Source of the DNA: Candidatus Sysuiplasma acidicola
GTDB lineage: Archaea; Thermoplasmatota; Thermoplasmata; Sysuiplasmatales; Sysuiplasmataceae
Direction of reading: 5' to 3'
Assembly (NCBI GenBank): GCA_019721035.1
Contig: JAHEAA010000001.1
Location: 1 to 39,990 of the forward strand
DNA: 39,990 nucleotides
Within the stretch, counting starts at the first letter, position 1, and each line of letters begins with the position of its first letter. Below, one piece after another: positions 13,220-23,760 of the stretch. The position numbers were made by a program, and so were the translations under genes. Below the pieces are notes generated by a model. The model was not told where the DNA came from and searched no databases. It saw nothing but the letters and a program-made list of their open reading frames with translations.

Positions 13220-14467
13220 ATGACGCAGTCCACACACTTCGGAAAGAACTCATTCGTGCTCATGGTGACGTCAGTTGCGCATTTTGTCAACGACGGTGAA
13301 AGCGCACTTCTTCCGGTCGTCTTACCCCTGCTTGCGTACACAATTTCGAGCAGTTACGCGCTTGCTGCGGTCGCGGCGTCCTTCTACCTCTTCTCCTCCT
13401 TCGGCAGTCCCGTTGCCGTTTCACGGGTCGCGCGCCTCGGAAACACCGGAAGGGGGCTGGGAGAAGGACTTCTGATACTCGGTATAGGCATATTCCTCAC
13501 AGGCTTGTCAGCCTCATTTCTCGGCACATACACGCAACTTGCCTACGCGGGAATAATAGTCTCATCGTGCATAGCGGGCTTCGGCTCGAGTTATTACCAT
13601 CCAATCGGCAGCGGCATCGTGCAGAAGAGTTTCGGTAACGAGGCGATGGGCGTCGCACTCGGAGTGAACGGATCTCTTGGCAGTTTCGGAAGAGCGATAT
13701 TTCTCACAATCTCAGTAGTGGCTTTCGGAGCGTTCATGCTCTCCGGCGGACTGATGCTCATAGGGACGGCGTGCATTGCTGCCGGTGCGCCGATATTCAT
13801 CTTCTTCCGATTTATTGAAGGAGAAAACGTGCCAGTCCCGGGAAGCGGCAGTGCGCGCAGCTGGGACAGGATAGGACCGGCAGTAAGGGGGACGTGGCCG
13901 CTGATTGTTCTGACTTTTGTGAGGAATGCGGCCTCCACCGGGATCATACTGTATCTGCCAACCTACTTCATAAGGGCACATCTGCTCCCTTACGGCCTGA
14001 GCCTTGGTCTCATGATGACGGTCATACTGTCTCTTCCAATCCCCGGTCAGATCATGATTGGCTGGATTTCAGACAGAATCGGTCTCATCAGGACGCTGTT
14101 CCTGACGACACTGATGTCCGGCGTCTTCGTCATGGTATTCCTGCTCTATCCTCTGAACCTCTACTTCGATGCGGCGTCGCTCGGCCTGTTCAGCCTGTTC
14201 GCTTTCAGCGGTTTCCCGATCCTGTTTCCGATCGCAACGAAAATGGGCAGAGCCGGGGACGCTCATCTGAGCCGGGGAGTAATATGGACAGCAGTAGGTT
14301 CCGGCTCTGCAGCCAGCCCCGTGATCGTCGTCCTGCTGAGCGAGGCGTGGGCGATGGGCAGTCTTCAGGGCGCATTCCTTGTTCTTTCATTGGCTACCGT
14401 AATAGTATCAGCTCTGTCATTTTCGTCAAGGATCGCGCTCAGCGAGAAGAAACACAGCAATCTATGA
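13220..14467 (+). CDS. MFS transporter, fosmidomycin-resistance (Fsr)-like
   Basis: A 415-residue, roughly 12-helix major facilitator protein. The start HFVNDGESALLPVVLPLLAY matches the family pattern HFxNDxxxxxLPxLLPLL seen in Fsr-type exporters, and the loop GWISDRIGLIRT is the repeat of the MFS motif after helix 8. Substrate unknown; Fsr relatives export drugs or sugars. It lies 61 bases after atpI on the same strand and may be transcribed by readthrough. The spacer holds a small CCCCC/GGGGG inverted repeat just before the start, which could act as an attenuator or terminator. Confidence 0.85.
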   Translation: MTQSTHFGKNSFVLMVTSVAHFVNDGESALLPVVLPLLAYTISSSYALAAVAASFYLFSSFGSPVAVSRVARLGNTGRGLGEGLLILGIGIFLTGLSASFLGTYTQLAYAGIIVSSCIAGFGSSYYHPIGSGIVQKSFGNEAMGVALGVNGSLGSFGRAIFLTISVVAFGAFMLSGGLMLIGTACIAAGAPIFIFFRFIEGENVPVPGSGSARSWDRIGPAVRGTWPLIVLTFVRNAASTGIILYLPTYFIRAHLLPYGLSLGLMMTVILSLPIPGQIMIGWISDRIGLIRTLFLTTLMSGVFVMVFLLYPLNLYFDAASLGLFSLFAFSGFPILFPIATKMGRAGDAHLSRGVIWTAVGSGSAASPVIVVLLSEAWAMGSLQGAFLVLSLATVIVSALSFSSRIALSEKKHSNL

Positions 14468-14688
14468 TTTCACGGGAACTGAACCTTTGCCGAATGTGAA
14501 CAGAGAAAGTTGAAGCAGGACAGTGTAGTGCGTCTGTATTCTCTGAAATAAACAAGTCGGTCCGATGCTACCGTGTATGGAGTAGAGTTCCGGCATTACC
14601 CTGAACTCTGCTATATCAAAGATGCTGAGTGGAAGCATTCAAGTCAATGTTTGCAGGCAAAAATAGACAGTATCGCCGAGGCAGTGAG
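14468..14688. other. non-coding spacer upstream of the HTH regulator
   Basis: I see no gene. A CTATATCAAA at 14611-14620 is a second TATA-like sequence, but it would place a transcript start after the GTG at 14629, so it does not support that start. Confidence 0.35.
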
Positions 14689-14695
14689 TTAATAT
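14689..14695 (+). promoter_or_regulatory. TATA-like box for the HTH regulator
   Basis: TTAATAT is centred about 27 bases before ATG 14719, fitting a leaderless transcript beginning at that ATG. Confidence 0.45.
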
Positions 14696-14718
14696 CTACA
14701 GTTGTACATGTTCGGATC

Positions 14719-15405
14719 ATGGAACTGTGGGAACTGACCATAACCCAGACTGACTGTCCGAATATAGAGACAACTGAAACTTTCGAAAATACATGCATAC
14801 TGCTGATGAACACCGAATCATCCGGAAAATACCAGGACATATTCGCAATAATATATTCAACTGAAAAGCAGGAGCTGAATTCCGCACTTAAGTTCCTTTC
14901 ATCGCATCGCAGAGTTTCAAATTTCAACCTGATATCAAAGAAAAGCGGCATTGCCATGGTTTTCTACAGGATGCAGCAGACATCCATGTTCCGCAAGACC
15001 TCGAAACTGGGTTTCCGCATACACCCGATTATGGTGGGCAAAGGGAGGGAGAAGTGGTTCTATATCAACAGCGGGCTGAAACCTCTCACTGAGAAAGACG
15101 TGAATGATAAATTCACAACAATAATCTCCATGAATTCAATAGCACAGGAGGAGTTCTTTCAGCAATATCCGGCATCTTTCAACAGGCTAAACATGGCCCA
15201 TATGATGGCAATGCTCTCGGGAGATGAAGTGAAGCTGATAAGCACAATCAATGAACTTGGATTTTTTGACTGGCCGCGTGGTGCCAGTCTTACACAGTTG
15301 AGCAATAAGATGAAGATGTCGAAGAGCACACTTTCCTACCACGTGAGGGGAGTTGAAAAGAAGATCGCAAACATGCTCACTGAGGAAGCGGGCGTCTGCA
15401 GGTGA
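14719..15405 (+). CDS. transcription regulator with C-terminal HTH_10 (bacterioopsin-activator-like) domain
   Basis: The protein has 228 residues from ATG 14719. The N-terminal part (MELWELTITQTDCPNIETT...) is a regulator module like those in archaeal Bat-type proteins. The C-terminal segment, about residues 165-220 (LSGDEVKLISTINELGFFDWPRGASL followed by TQLSNKMKMSKSTLSYHVRGVEKKI), matches HTH_10 closely: Gx(F/Y)(F/D)WPR then a helix-turn-helix with S-K-S-T. It probably senses a signal through the N-terminal half and binds DNA at the C terminus. An in-frame GTG at 14629 would add 30 residues but lies before the predicted transcript start. The neighbouring transporter genes are possible targets; that is inference only. 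Confidence 0.82.
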   Translation: MELWELTITQTDCPNIETTETFENTCILLMNTESSGKYQDIFAIIYSTEKQELNSALKFLSSHRRVSNFNLISKKSGIAMVFYRMQQTSMFRKTSKLGFRIHPIMVGKGREKWFYINSGLKPLTEKDVNDKFTTIISMNSIAQEEFFQQYPASFNRLNMAHMMAMLSGDEVKLISTINELGFFDWPRGASLTQLSNKMKMSKSTLSYHVRGVEKKIANMLTEEAGVCR

Positions 15406-16791: not shown

Positions 16792-18273
16792 ATGGGGGCG
16801 GAAACTTCTCAAGTATACAAATCTCCTTATGGTGAGTACCGGATAATTGTCGATGATGCCGGGAGAAAGTACAGAGTGGGAGAAGATGTCAAAGGCATAA
16901 CAAAACGTGTGGGCATCGGCCAGGGCAGGAGAACGCTGCTTTGGGGAGCCTGGATGTGCTTCTTCTTCGGAAGTGTTATTGAATATGGATGGGGAGTTGC
17001 ATCCACAACAGTCATACAGTACTATGGATGGAATTATTCCCTGGCGTTTTTCAATTACACGGTATACGTTCTGTTCGAAGCGACTATAATCGCATACACA
17101 TACAGTTGGCTGCGTGAAAAGGGTCTCATATCTCCAAGAAGGACGATGCTTATGGCTGTCCCTCTTGTTGCAGTATGTTATTATTTTCTCGCACATTCGT
17201 TTGCACCTTGGATTTCTTATGCGGGCTACGCTGCCATTGGCGGCTTTGGTTCAGGCGCGGGGTATGCGACAGGGGGCCATGTTGTAACCAAATGGTTCCC
17301 GGACAAGAGAGGATGGAGATTGGGATTCGCCGACGGTGCATGGGCCTACGGTTCAGTTCCGTTCATTATTTACTACGCAGCCTATTTCCACACGAACGAT
17401 TTCATTCCAGTGCTGTACGCAACTGGCATAATTCTTGGCATCGGCATGCTTATCGCAAGTTTCCTTGTCTGTGATCCACCGAAATACTGGTGGCCGAAGG
17501 ATGTGGACCCCATTGCAGCCAGAAAAGGCAAATTAAAGTCAAGAGAGCTTAAAAACAATCCCCCGGCGGTTGCCCAGTTTGAAACGCGTGAATTCTGGGC
17601 CTCAAGAGCGGGAAATGCACTAATTGCAGCCTTTACTCTCGGACTGTGCGCATCTCTTTTCAATGTCGGGTTCTATGCGCCATTCGGTGTTGCCATGGGA
17701 CTTAAGTCCGGCATTGTTGTGTTTACAGTCGGCGCGGCTGGATTTGCATTCACTGATGGCATTGGCCGGCCAACGATGGGCTACATATCGACCATCATTG
17801 GAAGAAGAAGGATGTTCTACATAGCATACCTGATAATGGGTCTGGGTGGTCTGGCAACGCTTTATGCAGGTGAGATTCATGACGCGATGCTCTGGGCATT
17901 CTTCGCGGTTGTGAGTGGTGCAGTATCCGGTGCTTGCTTTGTCTTCGCTCTGCTGATTGCAACAGACTACTATGGAGAGAACAACGCTGCAAAGAACTGG
18001 TCAAGCAATTATGTCTTCAAAGTCATAGGCGGTGCTTTCGCAGGCATTGTTGCAGCGGCAATCCTCGCGGCAACCAATAACTGGCCGCTCGTATTCTATC
18101 TGGGCGCAGGCTTCTCACTGATAGGTGCCTTCCTGATATGGGCATTTGTGAAGCAGCCTACCGAAGAGGAATACGCAAGGATCAGACAGAAACTGAACCG
18201 ACCCGTTCCTGCTGAGATAATGAACAAGATCACAGCCACACGCACTGAACAGGTGAAGGGGGGAGACGAATGA
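16792..18273 (+). CDS. OFA-type (oxalate/formate antiporter family) MFS transporter
   Basis: The 493-residue, 12-helix MFS protein belongs to the oxalate:formate antiporter (OFA) family. Seen: a soluble start, then WGAWMCFFFGSVIEYGWGV in helix 1, GGFGSGAGYATGG and VVTKWFPDKRGWRLGFADG in the helix 4-5 region (the KWFPDKRG motif is typical of OFA proteins), and TDGIGRPTMGYIST for the MFS loop. The start at ATG 16792 is set by the promoter and SD. The gene is coupled (ATGA) to a small membrane protein, and the next operon encodes an oxalate-oxidoreductase-like enzyme, so oxalate uptake, perhaps in exchange for another acid, is the most likely role. Other OFA members carry other carboxylates, so the substrate is inferred. 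Confidence 0.88.
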   Translation: MGAETSQVYKSPYGEYRIIVDDAGRKYRVGEDVKGITKRVGIGQGRRTLLWGAWMCFFFGSVIEYGWGVASTTVIQYYGWNYSLAFFNYTVYVLFEATIIAYTYSWLREKGLISPRRTMLMAVPLVAVCYYFLAHSFAPWISYAGYAAIGGFGSGAGYATGGHVVTKWFPDKRGWRLGFADGAWAYGSVPFIIYYAAYFHTNDFIPVLYATGIILGIGMLIASFLVCDPPKYWWPKDVDPIAARKGKLKSRELKNNPPAVAQFETREFWASRAGNALIAAFTLGLCASLFNVGFYAPFGVAMGLKSGIVVFTVGAAGFAFTDGIGRPTMGYISTIIGRRRMFYIAYLIMGLGGLATLYAGEIHDAMLWAFFAVVSGAVSGACFVFALLIATDYYGENNAAKNWSSNYVFKVIGGAFAGIVAAAILAATNNWPLVFYLGAGFSLIGAFLIWAFVKQPTEEEYARIRQKLNRPVPAEIMNKITATRTEQVKGGDE

Positions 18274-18512
18274 CCGAAGAGATGGAATACACCGATCACA
18301 AAGGTCTGATTGACGTTTCTGACACGGTCGTGTTCATATTGGGTTTTGTCATCATGGCGATCGGTTTCCTGATTAGCGTCGTCGGGGTTGATGGCAGTTC
18401 GCAGGTGGTTGTAGGGGTCGGGATAGCACTCATCTGGGTAGGTGTGGCAACTGCATTCTTCAGCGGCCTCATCGGAAACAGAAAAATACCGACCGGCTAT
18501 GAAAAACGGTAG
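18270..18512 (+). CDS. 80-residue two-helix membrane protein coupled to the OFA transporter
   Basis: I recognise no named family. It has a short acidic N terminus (MTEEMEYTDHKGL), two hydrophobic helices (VVFILGFVIMAIGFLISVVGV and VVVGVGIALIWVGVATAFFSGLI) and a basic tail IGNRKIPTGYEKR. The ATG overlaps the transporter's stop codon (ATGA, 18270-18273), so the two are translated together. Small membrane proteins encoded beside MFS carriers often act as a small subunit or regulator; that is an inference here. A strong terminator follows 28 bases downstream. Confidence 0.8.
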   Translation: MTEEMEYTDHKGLIDVSDTVVFILGFVIMAIGFLISVVGVDGSSQVVVGVGIALIWVGVATAFFSGLIGNRKIPTGYEKR

Positions 18513-18540
18513 TTCGGGAGAAGCCTGAAAAACAAACACA

Positions 18541-18596
18541 CCGGGATTGCGGACGTGCCGCATTCCCGGCAAACATTATTTTTATACATTTTTTAT
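18541..18596 (+). terminator. strong hairpin terminator after the OFA operon
   Basis: CCGGGA (18541-18546) pairs with TCCCGG (18564-18569) and GCGG (18549-18552) with CCGC (18558-18561) around an ACGTG loop. T-rich sequence (TTATTTTTATACATTTTTTATT) follows; its runs lie between 18577 and 18597. It separates the transporter operon from the oxidoreductase operon. Confidence 0.7.
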
Positions 18597-18750
18597 TCAC
18601 ATATACAGATTTAGCTTCAGGGGACGTTTGCCACCGTCTTTGTAAACTCCGAAATCGGTTTATCAACTGTTGCCTCTACGTACCACCCGGTGCACCGTTG
18701 AATGCCAGTTCAGAAGAAAAACAGAGGTTGGTACCTGTTCAACATAAAAT

Positions 18751-18758
18751 CTTTATTG
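18751..18758 (+). promoter_or_regulatory. TATA-like box of the oxidoreductase operon
   Basis: CTTTATTG is centred about 46 bases before ATG 18801. It predicts a leader of about 20 bases containing AAAGGCGA (about 18787-18794), a weak SD. The enzyme operon thus appears to have its own promoter. Confidence 0.45.
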
Positions 18759-18800
18759 TTAGAGCATGAATCCAACTAAAATCGGTAAAGGCGAATCGAT

Positions 18801-20018
18801 ATGGGCGGAAATAATCACAGTAAGGAAAACGGTACAGTTTCCACGGCGGATTTGGAAAAGTCGGTACTCCGGCTTGAGGTCAATTACAGGGGCATATTCC
18901 AGAAGTCATTGGCATACAGAATTACAAATGACCTGGTCTATGCTGCACATTCTGAGGGAAAAACAGCCTTCTCCAACGGCAGGTACAGCGACGACCCGCA
19001 GAGAAATGGTGTGCCGTGTGCCAACTTCGCTTTCTTCTCCGACAAACTTTCAGAGGATGATCTTGAAGCTGTTGCAAGCGCAAGCATGGACATCGACAGG
19101 GCAAATGTTGTTGTCGTGCTGGACGACACAATGGTAAAGGGGCTGGAGCCGTGGGGGCACTACGGGATAAGGCCGATTAACGAAAAAGTAATCGCAGGCG
19201 GTACGCTCCTTGTCATTTCACGGAGAAAACCGGAGGAACTTATAAAACATCTGGAAAAGAAGCCGTTCAGTTACAACATTGCAATCCTGCCAGGCGATCA
19301 GAGTTTTGCAGGTCTCTGGTATTACAGGGACGATTTGACAGATGTCAGGACGCTTGCGGCGATTGCGAGGGTTGCACCTGATGTAGTAGGCATTAAGACC
19401 GTTGAAGAATACGTCAGGAAGAAGTACGTCGACGAAGGAAAGGTAAAGGGCGTCCAGGAAGCTTATGACTCCGTTGCAGTCAGGGAAGTGCATCCCAGCG
19501 AAGGGATAGTCTGGCCATATCCGAAACCGAAACTCCCGTCCTGGGAGAATTTCGAGGAAGGGATCGCTGTGAAGAGTGTTGCGAGAGGATTCAAGATGGG
19601 ACCGAGGGGACAGAACAGGAATCCAGATTTCAAGCGTGGAACAAGCAAGACGCAAAGGCCCGTAATACGTTTTGACACATGCATCAAGTGCACACTGTGC
19701 TGGTACGACTGCCCCGACGAGTGCTTCGATCCAGCAGCCGATGGATTGTATGATGTCAACTATGAATACTGCACAGGCTGCGGTAGATGCGCACAGGTCT
19801 GCCCTGTGAATGACTGCATAGTCATGGTGGATGAGCTTAACTTCGACAACAACAACAGCCCGTGGGAATTATACAAAAAGAATCCCGAGGCCTATGTGAA
19901 AATGATTGAAGAGAAGAAGGGGACGGCTCGCTTCATGCCTTCGCCGGTTACCGGCAAGGGGGAGAAGCATACGGAGATCAAGGTTCCTGTGCCCTTCAAA
20001 GCAAGTGGAGGGAATTGA
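18801..20018 (+). CDS. oxalate-oxidoreductase-like 2-oxoacid:ferredoxin oxidoreductase, fused gamma-delta subunit
   Basis: The 405-residue protein fuses the gamma domain (about 20-200, with LEVNYRGIFQKSLAY...VVVVLDDTM and a Rossmann-like ending) to a ferredoxin-type delta domain. The delta domain has two 4Fe-4S motifs: Cys294, Cys297, Cys300, Cys304 and Cys324, Cys327, Cys330, Cys334 (CxxCxxCxxxC twice). These clusters pass electrons from the active site to ferredoxin. In many members gamma and delta are separate genes; a gamma-delta fusion with separate alpha and beta is the layout of the oxalate oxidoreductase of Moorella thermoacetica. The order here is gamma-delta, alpha, beta. A linker of about 90 residues (about 200-290) joins the two parts. 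ATG 18801 follows AAAGGCGA. Confidence 0.85.
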   Translation: MGGNNHSKENGTVSTADLEKSVLRLEVNYRGIFQKSLAYRITNDLVYAAHSEGKTAFSNGRYSDDPQRNGVPCANFAFFSDKLSEDDLEAVASASMDIDRANVVVVLDDTMVKGLEPWGHYGIRPINEKVIAGGTLLVISRRKPEELIKHLEKKPFSYNIAILPGDQSFAGLWYYRDDLTDVRTLAAIARVAPDVVGIKTVEEYVRKKYVDEGKVKGVQEAYDSVAVREVHPSEGIVWPYPKPKLPSWENFEEGIAVKSVARGFKMGPRGQNRNPDFKRGTSKTQRPVIRFDTCIKCTLCWYDCPDECFDPAADGLYDVNYEYCTGCGRCAQVCPVNDCIVMVDELNFDNNNSPWELYKKNPEAYVKMIEEKKGTARFMPSPVTGKGEKHTEIKVPVPFKASGGN

Positions 20019-21284
20019 ATGGTTACAGAGCTCGTTGACAGAAAGATCTATGAAAGTGAGGAACTTGCGACTGGAACCGATGCCGTTGCGCATGCGGTTA
20101 GGCTTGCAGATATCGATGTATTCTCGGCGTACCCGATAAGGCCGTACACGGGTGTCATGGACAGGCTTGCCAAGTTCATTGCTGACGGGAAGTTTGATTC
20201 GGAGTACATTATCGCGGACGGAGAACATTCACAGTTCGAGATCGCGAAGCATGCATCCTCGGTTGGTGCGAGGGCTTTTGCGGGCAGCAGCGGCACAGGG
20301 TGGCTGTATGCCACTGAAGCGCTTGCTGCGACAGCCACTGACAGGCTGCCGCTGGTGGCACTTGTAGGAAACAGGGCACTCGATGACCCGGGAGCGTTCG
20401 GAGTGGAGCACAACGATGCTATGCTTGTCAGAGACCTCGGGTGGCTCATCGTATGGGCATCGACTGCACAGGAAGCTCTGGATACGACACTTATTGCATA
20501 CAGAGTGGCAGAAGACCCTTTGGTCATGATGCCATGCGCAGTCGCAATTGATGGCGGCTACCTTACACATTCGCAGCACATTGTGAAAATACCGACGAAG
20601 GAAGCCGTTCAGAAATTCCTTCCTCCATACGACCTGGGCAGCAGGCGTATGCATCCCGACAATCCCGTTTCCATTGCGCCGCAGATAAATGAAGACTGGG
20701 GAATGGAAATAAGAAGACAGAACTGGGAAGCTGCCAGGAGAGCCAGAGGGGTCATATACAAAGCTTACAAGGAATACAATGAGGTCTTCAAGAGCTCCTA
20801 CCAGAATCCGTTCTTCGAGGAATTCATGATGGAAGATGCGGAGATAGCACTCATTGGAATGGGTACAGTGTCATCCGCCGCCAAAGCGGCAGTAAAGCTT
20901 CTCAGGGAAAAGGGGCAGAAGGTAGGGTACATAAAGCTGAGATGGTTCCGGCCGTTCCCGGCCGAAGAACTGAGGGAGAGCCTCTCCGAAGTTGCGGCAA
21001 TCGGCGTGATAGATCGTGACTTTGCCCACGGAGGCCCGGATGACGGGGGCGTGCTATTCAACGATGTGCGCTCGGCACTTTACAATTCCAGGAACAGACC
21101 GAGAATTGTAGACTTCATAGGCGGTCTCGCAGGCAGGGAAATATCGATTGAGGACGTTGCAAGAATGGCCGAGATAACAAAGAACCATAAAGGGGAAGGC
21201 AACCTGGTCACATGGATAAGAGTAAGGGAAGGCAGCGAAAAGGGCGATATCAAAGTACGAATGAATAATAAGAGAGGTGAGTAA
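20019..21284 (+). CDS. oxalate-oxidoreductase-like 2-oxoacid:ferredoxin oxidoreductase, alpha subunit
   Basis: The 421-residue alpha subunit binds the pyrimidine end of thiamine diphosphate and the substrate carboxylate. In pyruvate enzymes the motif is YPITP; here it is YPIRP with Arg41 replacing the threonine. Other key residues are Glu69 (ADGEHS), Arg119 (VGNRAL) and the segment DDPGAF with Asp122 and Phe127. In the characterised oxalate oxidoreductase I recall Arg31, Arg109, Asp112 and Phe117 in these places; each is offset here by 10. A second arginine and the loop change make room for the two carboxylates of oxalate. ATG 20019 directly follows the upstream stop and has GGAGG 7 bases before it. 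The protein could still use another small diacid or glyoxylate. Confidence 0.85.
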   Translation: MVTELVDRKIYESEELATGTDAVAHAVRLADIDVFSAYPIRPYTGVMDRLAKFIADGKFDSEYIIADGEHSQFEIAKHASSVGARAFAGSSGTGWLYATEALAATATDRLPLVALVGNRALDDPGAFGVEHNDAMLVRDLGWLIVWASTAQEALDTTLIAYRVAEDPLVMMPCAVAIDGGYLTHSQHIVKIPTKEAVQKFLPPYDLGSRRMHPDNPVSIAPQINEDWGMEIRRQNWEAARRARGVIYKAYKEYNEVFKSSYQNPFFEEFMMEDAEIALIGMGTVSSAAKAAVKLLREKGQKVGYIKLRWFRPFPAEELRESLSEVAAIGVIDRDFAHGGPDDGGVLFNDVRSALYNSRNRPRIVDFIGGLAGREISIEDVARMAEITKNHKGEGNLVTWIRVREGSEKGDIKVRMNNKRGE

Positions 21285-21285
21285 A

Positions 21286-22293
21286 ATGGCAACTACGACG
21301 GGAGTGTCCAAAGAGGAATTTAAAGACGCGAAGCTCTACAAGAGCGTCCATGGAATTGACATGGAGGAATTCTATACATCGGGCCACAGGACCTGTCAGG
21401 GATGTGAGTCTGCACTTGTGATGCGTGACTTTGCAAAGGCATCCGGACCGAGAACTGTTGTTACAGGCGCGACAGGGTGCATGTATGTGGCTAACACCAG
21501 CTACATGACAACACCCTGGGTCGTCCCCTGGATGCATACACAACTCGGGGGCGGCGGGGCATCGGCCGTCGGTATGGCTGCGGGTCTGAAGGCGCTGATG
21601 AGAAAAGGCAAGATTCCCCAGGAGAAGATTAATGTAATCAACTTTTCCGGCGACCTGGGCGGGGGCGACATGGGCCTGGGAGGCATATCCGGTGCGATGC
21701 AGACGGATTATGACATGCTGATAATCATCTATGACAACGAGTCTGCAGCCAACACGGACATACAGGCAACAAACATGACGCCCTGGGGCGCACAGACCAC
21801 ATTCACTCCGACGGGTTCAAAGAAGAGAATAATGCACGAGAAGTGGAAGAAGAATCTCGCGCCCATGATAGCCATCGGCCATCCAAACTGCAAGTATGTC
21901 GCAACAGCCTGCGCAACATTCCCGCCCATGGATTACATGAACAAGGTGAAAAAGGCGCTTTCTGTTGGCGGACCGACACTGATACACACGATGGATCCCT
22001 GTCCGAAAGGGTGGGACTACCATCCGCGTTACTCCGGTGATTTGGGCCAGCTGGCAATCAAGACAGGCATTTTCCCCCTCTATGAAATCATAAAGGGAGA
22101 AGTGGTTTACACATACGATGCGCGTAAAACGAAACGCGTGCCGGTAAGGGAGTACCTGGAAAAGCAGGGAAGATTCTCGCACTTCATAGACTCTGATTTT
22201 GAGTTTGTGCAGTCCAAAGTGGACGAGATGTGGAACGACTGGGAGATTCCTGGCGTTGCGCCCATAAAGGGATGGCTTTCAGTTAGACAGTGA
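21286..22293 (+). CDS. oxalate-oxidoreductase-like 2-oxoacid:ferredoxin oxidoreductase, beta subunit
   Basis: The 335-residue beta subunit holds thiamine diphosphate and the proximal 4Fe-4S cluster. Seen: HRTCQGCES (Cys37, Cys40), ATGCMYV (Cys65) and MDPCPKGW (Cys239) as cluster ligands; the thiamine-diphosphate motif FSGDLGGGDMGLGG (Gly122, Asp123) ending at YDNESAANTDIQ, where Asn156 matches the conserved asparagine of the family. The motif differs from the pyruvate type (GDGxxxDIG...NTGxQ) in GDLGGGD and NTD. The start at ATG 21286 has GAGGTGA 5 bases upstream, overlapping the alpha stop; an in-frame GTG at 21277 is less well placed. A hairpin follows the gene. Confidence 0.87.
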   Translation: MATTTGVSKEEFKDAKLYKSVHGIDMEEFYTSGHRTCQGCESALVMRDFAKASGPRTVVTGATGCMYVANTSYMTTPWVVPWMHTQLGGGGASAVGMAAGLKALMRKGKIPQEKINVINFSGDLGGGDMGLGGISGAMQTDYDMLIIIYDNESAANTDIQATNMTPWGAQTTFTPTGSKKRIMHEKWKKNLAPMIAIGHPNCKYVATACATFPPMDYMNKVKKALSVGGPTLIHTMDPCPKGWDYHPRYSGDLGQLAIKTGIFPLYEIIKGEVVYTYDARKTKRVPVREYLEKQGRFSHFIDSDFEFVQSKVDEMWNDWEIPGVAPIKGWLSVRQ

Positions 22294-22335: not shown

Positions 22336-23634
22336 TCATTCCGTAATGAGGTCCAGTTTCCCCGCGTCATCCCTTGCAGACCAGATGCTGAGCGATAGTG
22401 CCGTTCCGGCCATCATGAGCACACCGGCGACCAGTATATTTGATATCCAGGCTGTTCCCCAGCCGGCAATAGAGGCGGTCAGTGGAACGATCACCAGCGC
22501 AAAGGCACCGAATGTGGCGCCGAGGTTGTATGCGAAACCGACTGCCGTGGTCCTGTATCTTTTGCTGAATGCTTCCGACATGAGAGCAGGCAATGTGGAG
22601 AAGATCATTGCCTCAAAGAAAGCCTGGACCGAGAAGAGAGACATGACCAGGAACACATTTCTGCCGAATGCAAACAGATCTACGGGGAGCGAAATAACCA
22701 GAAAGAGCACTGTGTACTTGAGTATGTAGCCGGCCCTGTCCCTTGTGCGCGCTGCAAAAAAACCTCCCAGTATCACGCCTGCGATTGAGATGAGGTTTAT
22801 GACTATGAGAGCGATGCCCGAGATCCCGTTCTTGAAACCGTTTACGGTTTCCAGTATCAGCGGATACAGCGAAAAGGTGGAAGCATTTATGTAAAGGAGG
22901 CCCGCGGTAATCATCACGACAGCAGCGAGTCGCCCCCACACTTCTCTGAACATCTTCAGCAGAGGGGTCTTTTCAACCGCGCCTTTACGCTCCGTCTCCT
23001 CAAATACCTGCGACTCGGGCGTGAGGGAACGTATGAATAATGTGAGTATACCAGGCACGAGCGTAGAGAGGAAGAGCAGTCTCCATCCAATGGTTGCGTA
23101 TCCAGCGGGGCCCGTCAAAAGGTAAATGAGCGTGAAGACTCCGGCGAGTATCGCGTAGCCGCAGCCAAATCCGCTCTGGACAAACGCACCGTAAAGGTTT
23201 CTCTTTTCGGGAGGGACGCTTTCCATCGAGAGCGCTGTGCCTCCGCCATATTCCGCACCGGCAAATATACCCATCAGGAAGAGAAGAACAAATACGGCAA
23301 CAGACACGATGATCCCAGCCTGCTGGTATGTGGGCAGGAGGCCGAGCGAGGCGGTAGAAAGGGAGAAAAGACCCACTGTTAGAACTAGCATTCTCTTCCT
23401 GCCTATCCTGTCTCCGATGAAATTGCCCAGGACAGCTGAGCCCAGGGCTCTTGCGACACCGTTGACGCCGAACGCAAGAAAATAGAACAGGCTCAGTGAG
23501 GCGGGGAAGAAAAGCGGGCTGACCGTACCGACCTGAATCAGATAGCTTATGGTCACATAACCATCCATGAGCCAGCCGAGCCATGCTGCAAATACAATTC
23601 TGTTCGGATTGCCATAATGCGGCGCTGCGGTCAA
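22336..23634 (-). CDS. MFS transporter, sugar/metabolite:H+ symporter type
   Basis: A 12-helix major facilitator protein of about 432 residues. Signatures seen: WLGWLMDGYVTISYL in helix 1, GNFIGDRIGRKRMLVLTVGLFSL for MFS motif A, AGAEYGGGTALSMESVPPEKRNLYGAFVQSG for the helix 4-5 region of metabolite:H+ and sialate/lactate symporters, and FAARTRDRAGYIL for the central loop. The GGAEY/PE.RG-type pattern suggests carboxylate or osmolyte uptake. TTG 23634 has GGAGGA 6 bases upstream, and a TTTAAA at 23668-23673 gives a fitting short leader. A TTG at 23658 would lie upstream of this SD, so it is less likely. It is convergent with the oxidoreductase operon, and its role with it is uncertain. Confidence 0.82.
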   Translation of the reverse strand: MTAAPHYGNPNRIVFAAWLGWLMDGYVTISYLIQVGTVSPLFFPASLSLFYFLAFGVNGVARALGSAVLGNFIGDRIGRKRMLVLTVGLFSLSTASLGLLPTYQQAGIIVSVAVFVLLFLMGIFAGAEYGGGTALSMESVPPEKRNLYGAFVQSGFGCGYAILAGVFTLIYLLTGPAGYATIGWRLLFLSTLVPGILTLFIRSLTPESQVFEETERKGAVEKTPLLKMFREVWGRLAAVVMITAGLLYINASTFSLYPLILETVNGFKNGISGIALIVINLISIAGVILGGFFAARTRDRAGYILKYTVLFLVISLPVDLFAFGRNVFLVMSLFSVQAFFEAMIFSTLPALMSEAFSKRYRTTAVGFAYNLGATFGAFALVIVPLTASIAGWGTAWISNILVAGVLMMAGTALSLSIWSARDDAGKLDLITE

Positions 23635-23760
23635 ATGTAGTCCTCCGGTAGGAATCAAAAGCCCTGTTTAAAGGTTATGGGGAACACCGGCAATGGTCTG
23701 TGTATATGCATGCGTCCCTGTCCGTTGCCTGGGACCCAGCCCGGCGATGTGCCAGTTAAA

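Follow-up and report, generated by a model that had tools for sequence, protein, structure and literature searches.

A probable oxalate:ferredoxin oxidoreductase gene cluster, sister to the Moorella enzyme, in a Thermoplasmata archaeon

The genes at positions 16792 to 22293 of the window (the whole 39,990-nucleotide stretch of DNA that was analysed) most probably encode an oxalate:ferredoxin oxidoreductase (OOR) from a clade sister to that of Moorella, together with a probable oxalate importer. The genes, their homology and phylogeny, the active-site residues, the genomic context and the presence of complex I and oxidases in the genome are established directly.

There are five ORFs in the cluster, all read in the same direction (+). 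The first (16792..18273) encodes an MFS transporter that is a distant relative of the oxalate/formate antiporter (OFA) group, and the second (18270..18512) a small protein of 80 amino acids with two hydrophobic stretches. The small-protein gene overlaps the transporter stop by four bases, a translational overlap of the pair that the initial annotation described as coupled. The small protein, predicted to have two helices, matches no family in NCBIfam and Pfam searches and is a possible partner of the transporter. There is then a gap of approximately 290 bases (18510..18800, +) which, on reading the sequence only, holds a GC-rich hairpin with a T-rich stretch after it. The transporter pair may thus be transcribed separately from the genes for the enzyme. 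The enzyme genes follow without gaps: gamma-delta (18801..20018), in which domain III is fused to a 2[4Fe-4S] ferredoxin domain and followed by a C-terminal extension; alpha (20019..21284; domains I-II), which carries YPIRPY and the switch loop LDDPGAFG; and beta (21286..22293, with the start at 21277 or 21286), for thiamine diphosphate and one [4Fe-4S] cluster. The earlier reading of these genes as a fused gamma-delta, alpha and beta set of a 2-oxoacid:ferredoxin oxidoreductase is confirmed, and the best matches are to Moorella OOR.

Upstream of the cluster there is an HTH_10-type transcriptional regulator (14629..15405, +; Pfam PF04967), probably the regulator of the locus. Each of the seven related archaeal loci whose sequence reaches that far upstream (L053 to L059) has a homologue there. 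On either side of the cluster there is another MFS transporter, at 22336-23658 (-) and 13220-14467 (+). OxlT Arg272 or Lys355 is kept in neither, and a homologue of the gene at 13220-14467 lies upstream of the enzyme in L053, L055, L056 and L059. We asked whether the contig might be a contaminant and rejected this, since archaeal genes for Cdc6, the primase small subunit, a DNA polymerase small-subunit-like protein and A-type ATPase are also found in the window. The nearest genome record, with an alpha 94% identical to that of the window, is a Thermoplasmata archaeon; the archaeal assignment therefore stands.

All three subunits resemble the OOR of Moorella thermoacetica (5c4i, 5exd, 5exe), which is the best match in both sequence and fold. 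Among solved structures, alpha matches Moorella OOR with an E value of 8e-97 (43% identity to 5c4i_A), and the next match is the pyruvate:ferredoxin oxidoreductase of Methanosarcina acetivorans (9bt4; 1.5e-60, 33% identity). The best NCBIfam model for alpha is that of OOR (NF045791), at 381 bits and under the cut-off of 500; PorA_Arch scores 338 bits. The template-free predicted model of alpha (mean pLDDT 75) is nearest to 5c4i_A (TM 0.84/0.90, E 5e-40). Segment 118-134, which includes the switch loop, is of low confidence in this model, which is compatible with mobility but no proof of it.

For beta the best solved structure is again Moorella OOR (E 3e-79), with 48% identity to 5c4i_C versus 41% to the pyruvate enzyme, and the OOR model NF045792 is best in NCBIfam (330 bits, under the cut-off of 590). 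The cluster cysteines Cys38, Cys41, Cys66 and Cys240 and the thiamine-diphosphate ligands Asp124 and Asn152 are conserved (beta residues are counted from window position 21283). Gamma-delta is less similar (E 4e-15; 28% identity to 5c4i_B). Its best NCBIfam model is nonetheless OxalOxreddelta (NF045790; 95.7 bits, under the cut-off of 230), its eight cluster cysteines are conserved, and the eight best fold matches of its predicted model, which is of modest confidence (mean 66), are all Moorella OOR chains. The subunit plan of Moorella OOR (alpha with domains I-II, beta, and a gamma-delta in which domains III-V are fused) is present in full, as are its cluster and thiamine-diphosphate ligands. 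The differences from Moorella lie in the identities of 43, 48 and 28%, which go with scores under the curated equivalog cut-offs, in a longer gamma-delta and in two switch-loop residues discussed below.

Within the clade, beta varies at two positions beside the ligands. The thiamine-diphosphate motif GDG is changed to GDL at residue 125, and the Tyr of NESY is changed to Ala at residue 155, each change affecting roughly half of the clade (33 and 34 of 66). Such nearly equal counts suggest that the two substitutions are paired.

The residues of the active site point in the same direction as the matches. Arg41, Arg119, Asp122 and Phe127 of alpha align without gaps, with a shift of 10, to Moorella Arg31, Arg109, Asp112 and Phe117, as had been proposed at the outset from the sequence of the window. 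YPIRPY is present in 59/59 clade alphas, whereas position 41 is Thr (YPITP) in all 31 pyruvate-type alphas, so that the Thr expected of a PorA is lacking in the window alpha and the contrast drawn in the initial annotation between YPIRP and YPITP is upheld. Arg41, Tyr43, Met47, Gln72, Asp122, Gly125, Phe127 and Gly128 are invariant in the same 59 alphas and identical in Moorella. Five of these (Arg41, Tyr43, Asp122, Phe127 and Gly128) are absent in all 31 pyruvate-type alphas, and the other three nearly always differ there. The initial annotation had also counted Arg119 as diagnostic. Asp122 and Phe127 are indeed absent from the pyruvate-type alphas, but Arg119 is common to the OOR-clade and pyruvate-type alphas compared and is not diagnostic; its counterpart is the conserved carboxylate-binding Arg described with the Sulfolobus structure (PMC5020499). 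Over the two catalytic subunits, the window clade and Moorella OOR share residues at 18 alpha and 27 beta positions that the pyruvate-type enzymes rarely have.

The switch loop differs from that of Moorella. The bait-and-switch mechanism of Moorella OOR has been described as depending chiefly on Arg31 and Asp116 (PMC5020499). Asp116, which the initial annotation had not listed, is replaced by Ala126 in 59/59 clade alphas, and Pro113 by Asp123. This suggests that the gating aspartate may have been relocated within the loop. A deeper YPIRPY alpha (47% identical) is found with a beta in another Thermoplasmata family (genome G509, L155:45-2251), and a gamma-delta-like gene of the same genome lies on a separate small contig (L154:2063-3455). 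With Asp at 113 and Asn at 116, the loop of this alpha is intermediate between Moorella and the window clade.

Trees were built for alpha (91 and 47 rows) and beta (45 rows). In a comparison set made up of pyruvate-type enzymes only, the window alpha and beta each join Moorella OOR, apart from the pyruvate-type enzymes, with support of 100/99, Moorella OOR being represented by one sequence on a long branch. When the beta tree is midpoint-rooted the pyruvate enzymes are not a single clade. Neither alpha nor beta is placed among the pyruvate-type enzymes. A search of plasmid records for a second Moorella-type reference returned only pyruvate-type or more distant relatives.

These results bear on whether the enzyme could be a ferredoxin oxidoreductase for pyruvate, or for 2-oxoacids in general, with a drifted active site. 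The window enzyme has much in common with archaeal PorA and the Methanosarcina enzyme, including superfamily, fold, the Arg109 equivalent and the cluster ligands, and the match to PorA_Arch at 338 bits is in keeping with this. It differs from them in having YPIRP for YPITP, in its switch loop and in the separate delta of those enzymes, and it stands apart in the trees. Against a drifted pyruvate enzyme, the trees and the 45 shared positions point to OOR, the Thr of YPITP that is replaced by Arg is essential in the Sulfolobus enzyme (PMC5020499), and there are two further oxoacid oxidoreductase alpha genes in the genome that could serve pyruvate and other oxoacids. We regard this explanation as very improbable. 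Judged by its sequence, the window enzyme is a sister form to Moorella OOR rather than a Moorella equivalog. Because the scores are below the equivalog cut-offs and the loop Asp116 is lacking, 'OOR-like sister clade' is a safer description than 'Moorella enzyme'.

The clade includes sequences from Acidobacteria, Chloroflexi/SAR202, Actinobacteria and MAGs labelled Deltaproteobacteria. Those of Thermoplasmata type make up a single group, whose sister comprises genomes labelled Acidobacteria, Chloroflexi, Gemmatimonadetes and Deltaproteobacteria; Actinobacteria and a SAR202/Dehalococcoidia branch fall outside this grouping. Gene transfer between the domains is likely. Two records, labelled Nitrososphaerales (L057) and bacterium (L058), may be mis-binned archaeal contigs.

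The transporter matches OxlT (8hpj) and SfMCT (6g9x) in a search against solved structures. Like OxlT (8hpj, 8hpk; PMC10070484) it has the MFS fold, and Arg326 and Lys410 correspond to OxlT Arg272 and Lys355, the residues that bind the two carboxylates of oxalate (PMC10070484). Tyr35 and Tyr124 are also kept, and at the Lys355 position a lactate transporter has Cys. Unlike in OxlT, the aromatic box is kept only in part (Trp324 is lost and Tyr150 is changed to Trp), and the scores are far below the NCBIfam cut-offs for the OFA group (TIGR00890, 106 bits versus 375; TIGR04259, 97 versus 335). The name 'OFA-family' given to it in the initial annotation is therefore too strong as a family assignment, but the equivalents of both oxalate-binding residues are there. 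The transporter is a probable oxalate importer. Formate exchange, in contrast to the OxlT antiport, is unlikely because an oxalate oxidoreductase route would be expected to yield no formate. In L053, the closest relative, where alpha is 94% identical, the transporter gene (L053:3872-4603) is nevertheless a truncated fragment with 41% identity to that of the window, reflecting gene replacement or decay. An OFA-like gene was looked for near the enzyme in the sister genus and none was found.

Additional evidence comes from the neighbours of the enzyme in relatives. The gamma-delta, alpha, beta set is present in bacteria in most of 70 loci, a few of which are cut by contig ends. There are GGT-family genes near four copies of the enzyme (L058:2275-3930, L083:8688-10532, L156:3-668 and L057:8320-8895), and L057, L058 and L156 are of the archaeal group. 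The catalytic chain scores far better against 5hft_B than against true GGT small chains in L058 (161 versus 101 bits) and L156 (104 versus 38), and the L083 gene has no preference for 5hft_B over true GGT small chains. We take 5hft to be the oxalate-releasing oxamate amidohydrolase of Klebsiella, which suggests oxamate as a source of oxalate near the L058 and L156 copies. Beside bacterial copies, the oxalate/formate antiporter TIGR04259 is above its cut-off in L062 (572 bits), L063 (592 bits) and L118 (418 bits), with partial copies near the enzyme in L065 and L068. Formyl-CoA transferase (TIGR03253) is above its cut-off near the enzyme in L063, L065, L100 and L119 and partial in L082, and related acyl-CoA ligases are found in L064, L068 and L118. 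The majority of bacterial neighbours are non-oxalate genes, and a survey has cautioned that frc also occurs outside oxalotrophy (PMC10192776). In the window, no formyl-CoA transferase or oxamate-type gene was identified. Taken together, the neighbours in relatives give support for oxalate as the likely substrate that is independent of Moorella and, with the binding residues of the transporter, favour the substrate proposed in the initial annotation.

In L088 to L117 (SAR202/Dehalococcoidia) the recurrent neighbours are genes of an FMN-dependent 2-hydroxyacid dehydrogenase family, of thiamine salvage (TenA) and of a thiamine-diphosphate enzyme resembling acetolactate synthase. Together they may form a module for C2 acids.

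The oxalate reading has points against it: the equivalog scores below cut-offs, the change of Asp116 to Ala, the weak OFA transporter and its patchy presence, and the few oxalate neighbours. The same Arg41 pocket might instead accept a different small molecule that bears a second acidic or polar group (glyoxylate, mesoxalate or oxamate, for example), with oxalate at most a side substrate. The clade-invariant change of the substrate gate (Asp116 to Ala with Pro113 to Asp) would fit this, as would the many SAR202 copies that lie near the 2-hydroxyacid dehydrogenase and thiamine-diphosphate enzyme and not near oxalate genes. However, oxalate antiporters and formyl-CoA transferases recur by the bacterial copies and the window transporter keeps both basic residues with which OxlT binds oxalate. 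We consider another substrate unlikely and prefer oxalate.

We infer the substrate, direction, electron route and physiological role as follows. Oxalate, an acid common in plants and fungi, would enter via the MFS transporter and bind at the thiamine diphosphate that lies between alpha and beta, where Arg41 would hold the charge of the substrate. It would be split into two CO2, possibly without CoA as the initial annotation had proposed, and the two electrons would pass from the beta [4Fe-4S] cluster through the gamma-delta ferredoxin domain to ferredoxin. Reduced ferredoxin would then most likely feed a complex I without NADH module and aerobic respiration. There are two haem-copper oxidases (two COX1) and a nuo operon in the genome, and a search of the genome for the NuoF family found none. 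Respiration driven by ferredoxin is plausible given these oxidases and a complex I of this kind. In this the host, an uncultured archaeon with terminal oxidases, differs from the acetogen Moorella. The classical frc route was considered and rejected: the sole CoA-transferase III gene in the genome best matches succinate-glutarate transferase and is below the formyl-CoA transferase cut-off.

The enzyme is present in 6/8 genomes of the order and also in two other Thermoplasmata families: when 400 genomes of the class were screened for the YPIRPY pattern, it was found in two genomes of one such family and in one genome of the other. Many other hits of this pattern lay outside oxidoreductases and were rejected as chance matches, several of them to Ser codons that the pattern permits. 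Two genomes of the host's own genus, 95-97% complete, lack the enzyme. Such patchiness is what might be seen if oxalate were oxidised mainly for detoxification or supplementary reducing power and not for growth, and since oxalate yields CO2 only, growth on it alone would need CO2 fixation. The adjacent regulator and probable importer suggest use over passive removal. A mainly protective or supplementary role seems doubtful but deserves some weight; it concerns the role of the enzyme and overlaps with the preferred explanation, oxidation of oxalate by an OOR.

The chances are about even that the clade is a second, distinct class of OOR whose switch loop has been rebuilt (a second Asp next to Asp122, and Ala for the Moorella gating Asp), and that it serves archaea that respire as well as bacteria of soil and sea such as Acidobacteria and SAR202. 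In the archaeon, ferredoxin would then deliver electrons to the NADH-module-less complex I, and aerobic respiration would draw its electrons from oxalate. With its gating aspartate lost or shifted, the clade is a natural test of the bait-and-switch mechanism. It is also a little-noticed branch of the enzyme outside the acetogens in which the enzyme was characterised. A survey of oxalotrophy was centred on oxc and related pathways and assigned other routes to eukaryotes or specific bacteria, e.g. acetogens (PMC10192776). If the clade oxidises oxalate, there would be a direct ATP-free route in archaea, soil Acidobacteria and marine SAR202 that oxc-centred surveys would miss. In the literature searched on oxalate in Thermoplasmata, Thermoplasmatota and SAR202 and on archaeal oxalotrophy the enzyme is unreported, which is weak evidence as little of the subscription literature was covered. 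Two cultured Dehalococcoidia (Tepidiforma) were reported without growth on oxalate (PMC10284905), which would count against the reading only if these strains carry the gene set.

Finally, two groups of loci differ in the genes next to the oxidoreductase. In a second Thermoplasmata family, peptide-type ABC transporter genes, as read from the sequences, lie directly upstream (L156:798-6512 and L157:1-4903) and may be an alternative uptake system. In Actinobacteria (L101, L102 and L103) there is a NuoF-like (Complex1_51K) gene directly after the oxidoreductase, e.g. L102:8284-9588, which suggests that in these bacteria the oxidoreductase is coupled to NAD.
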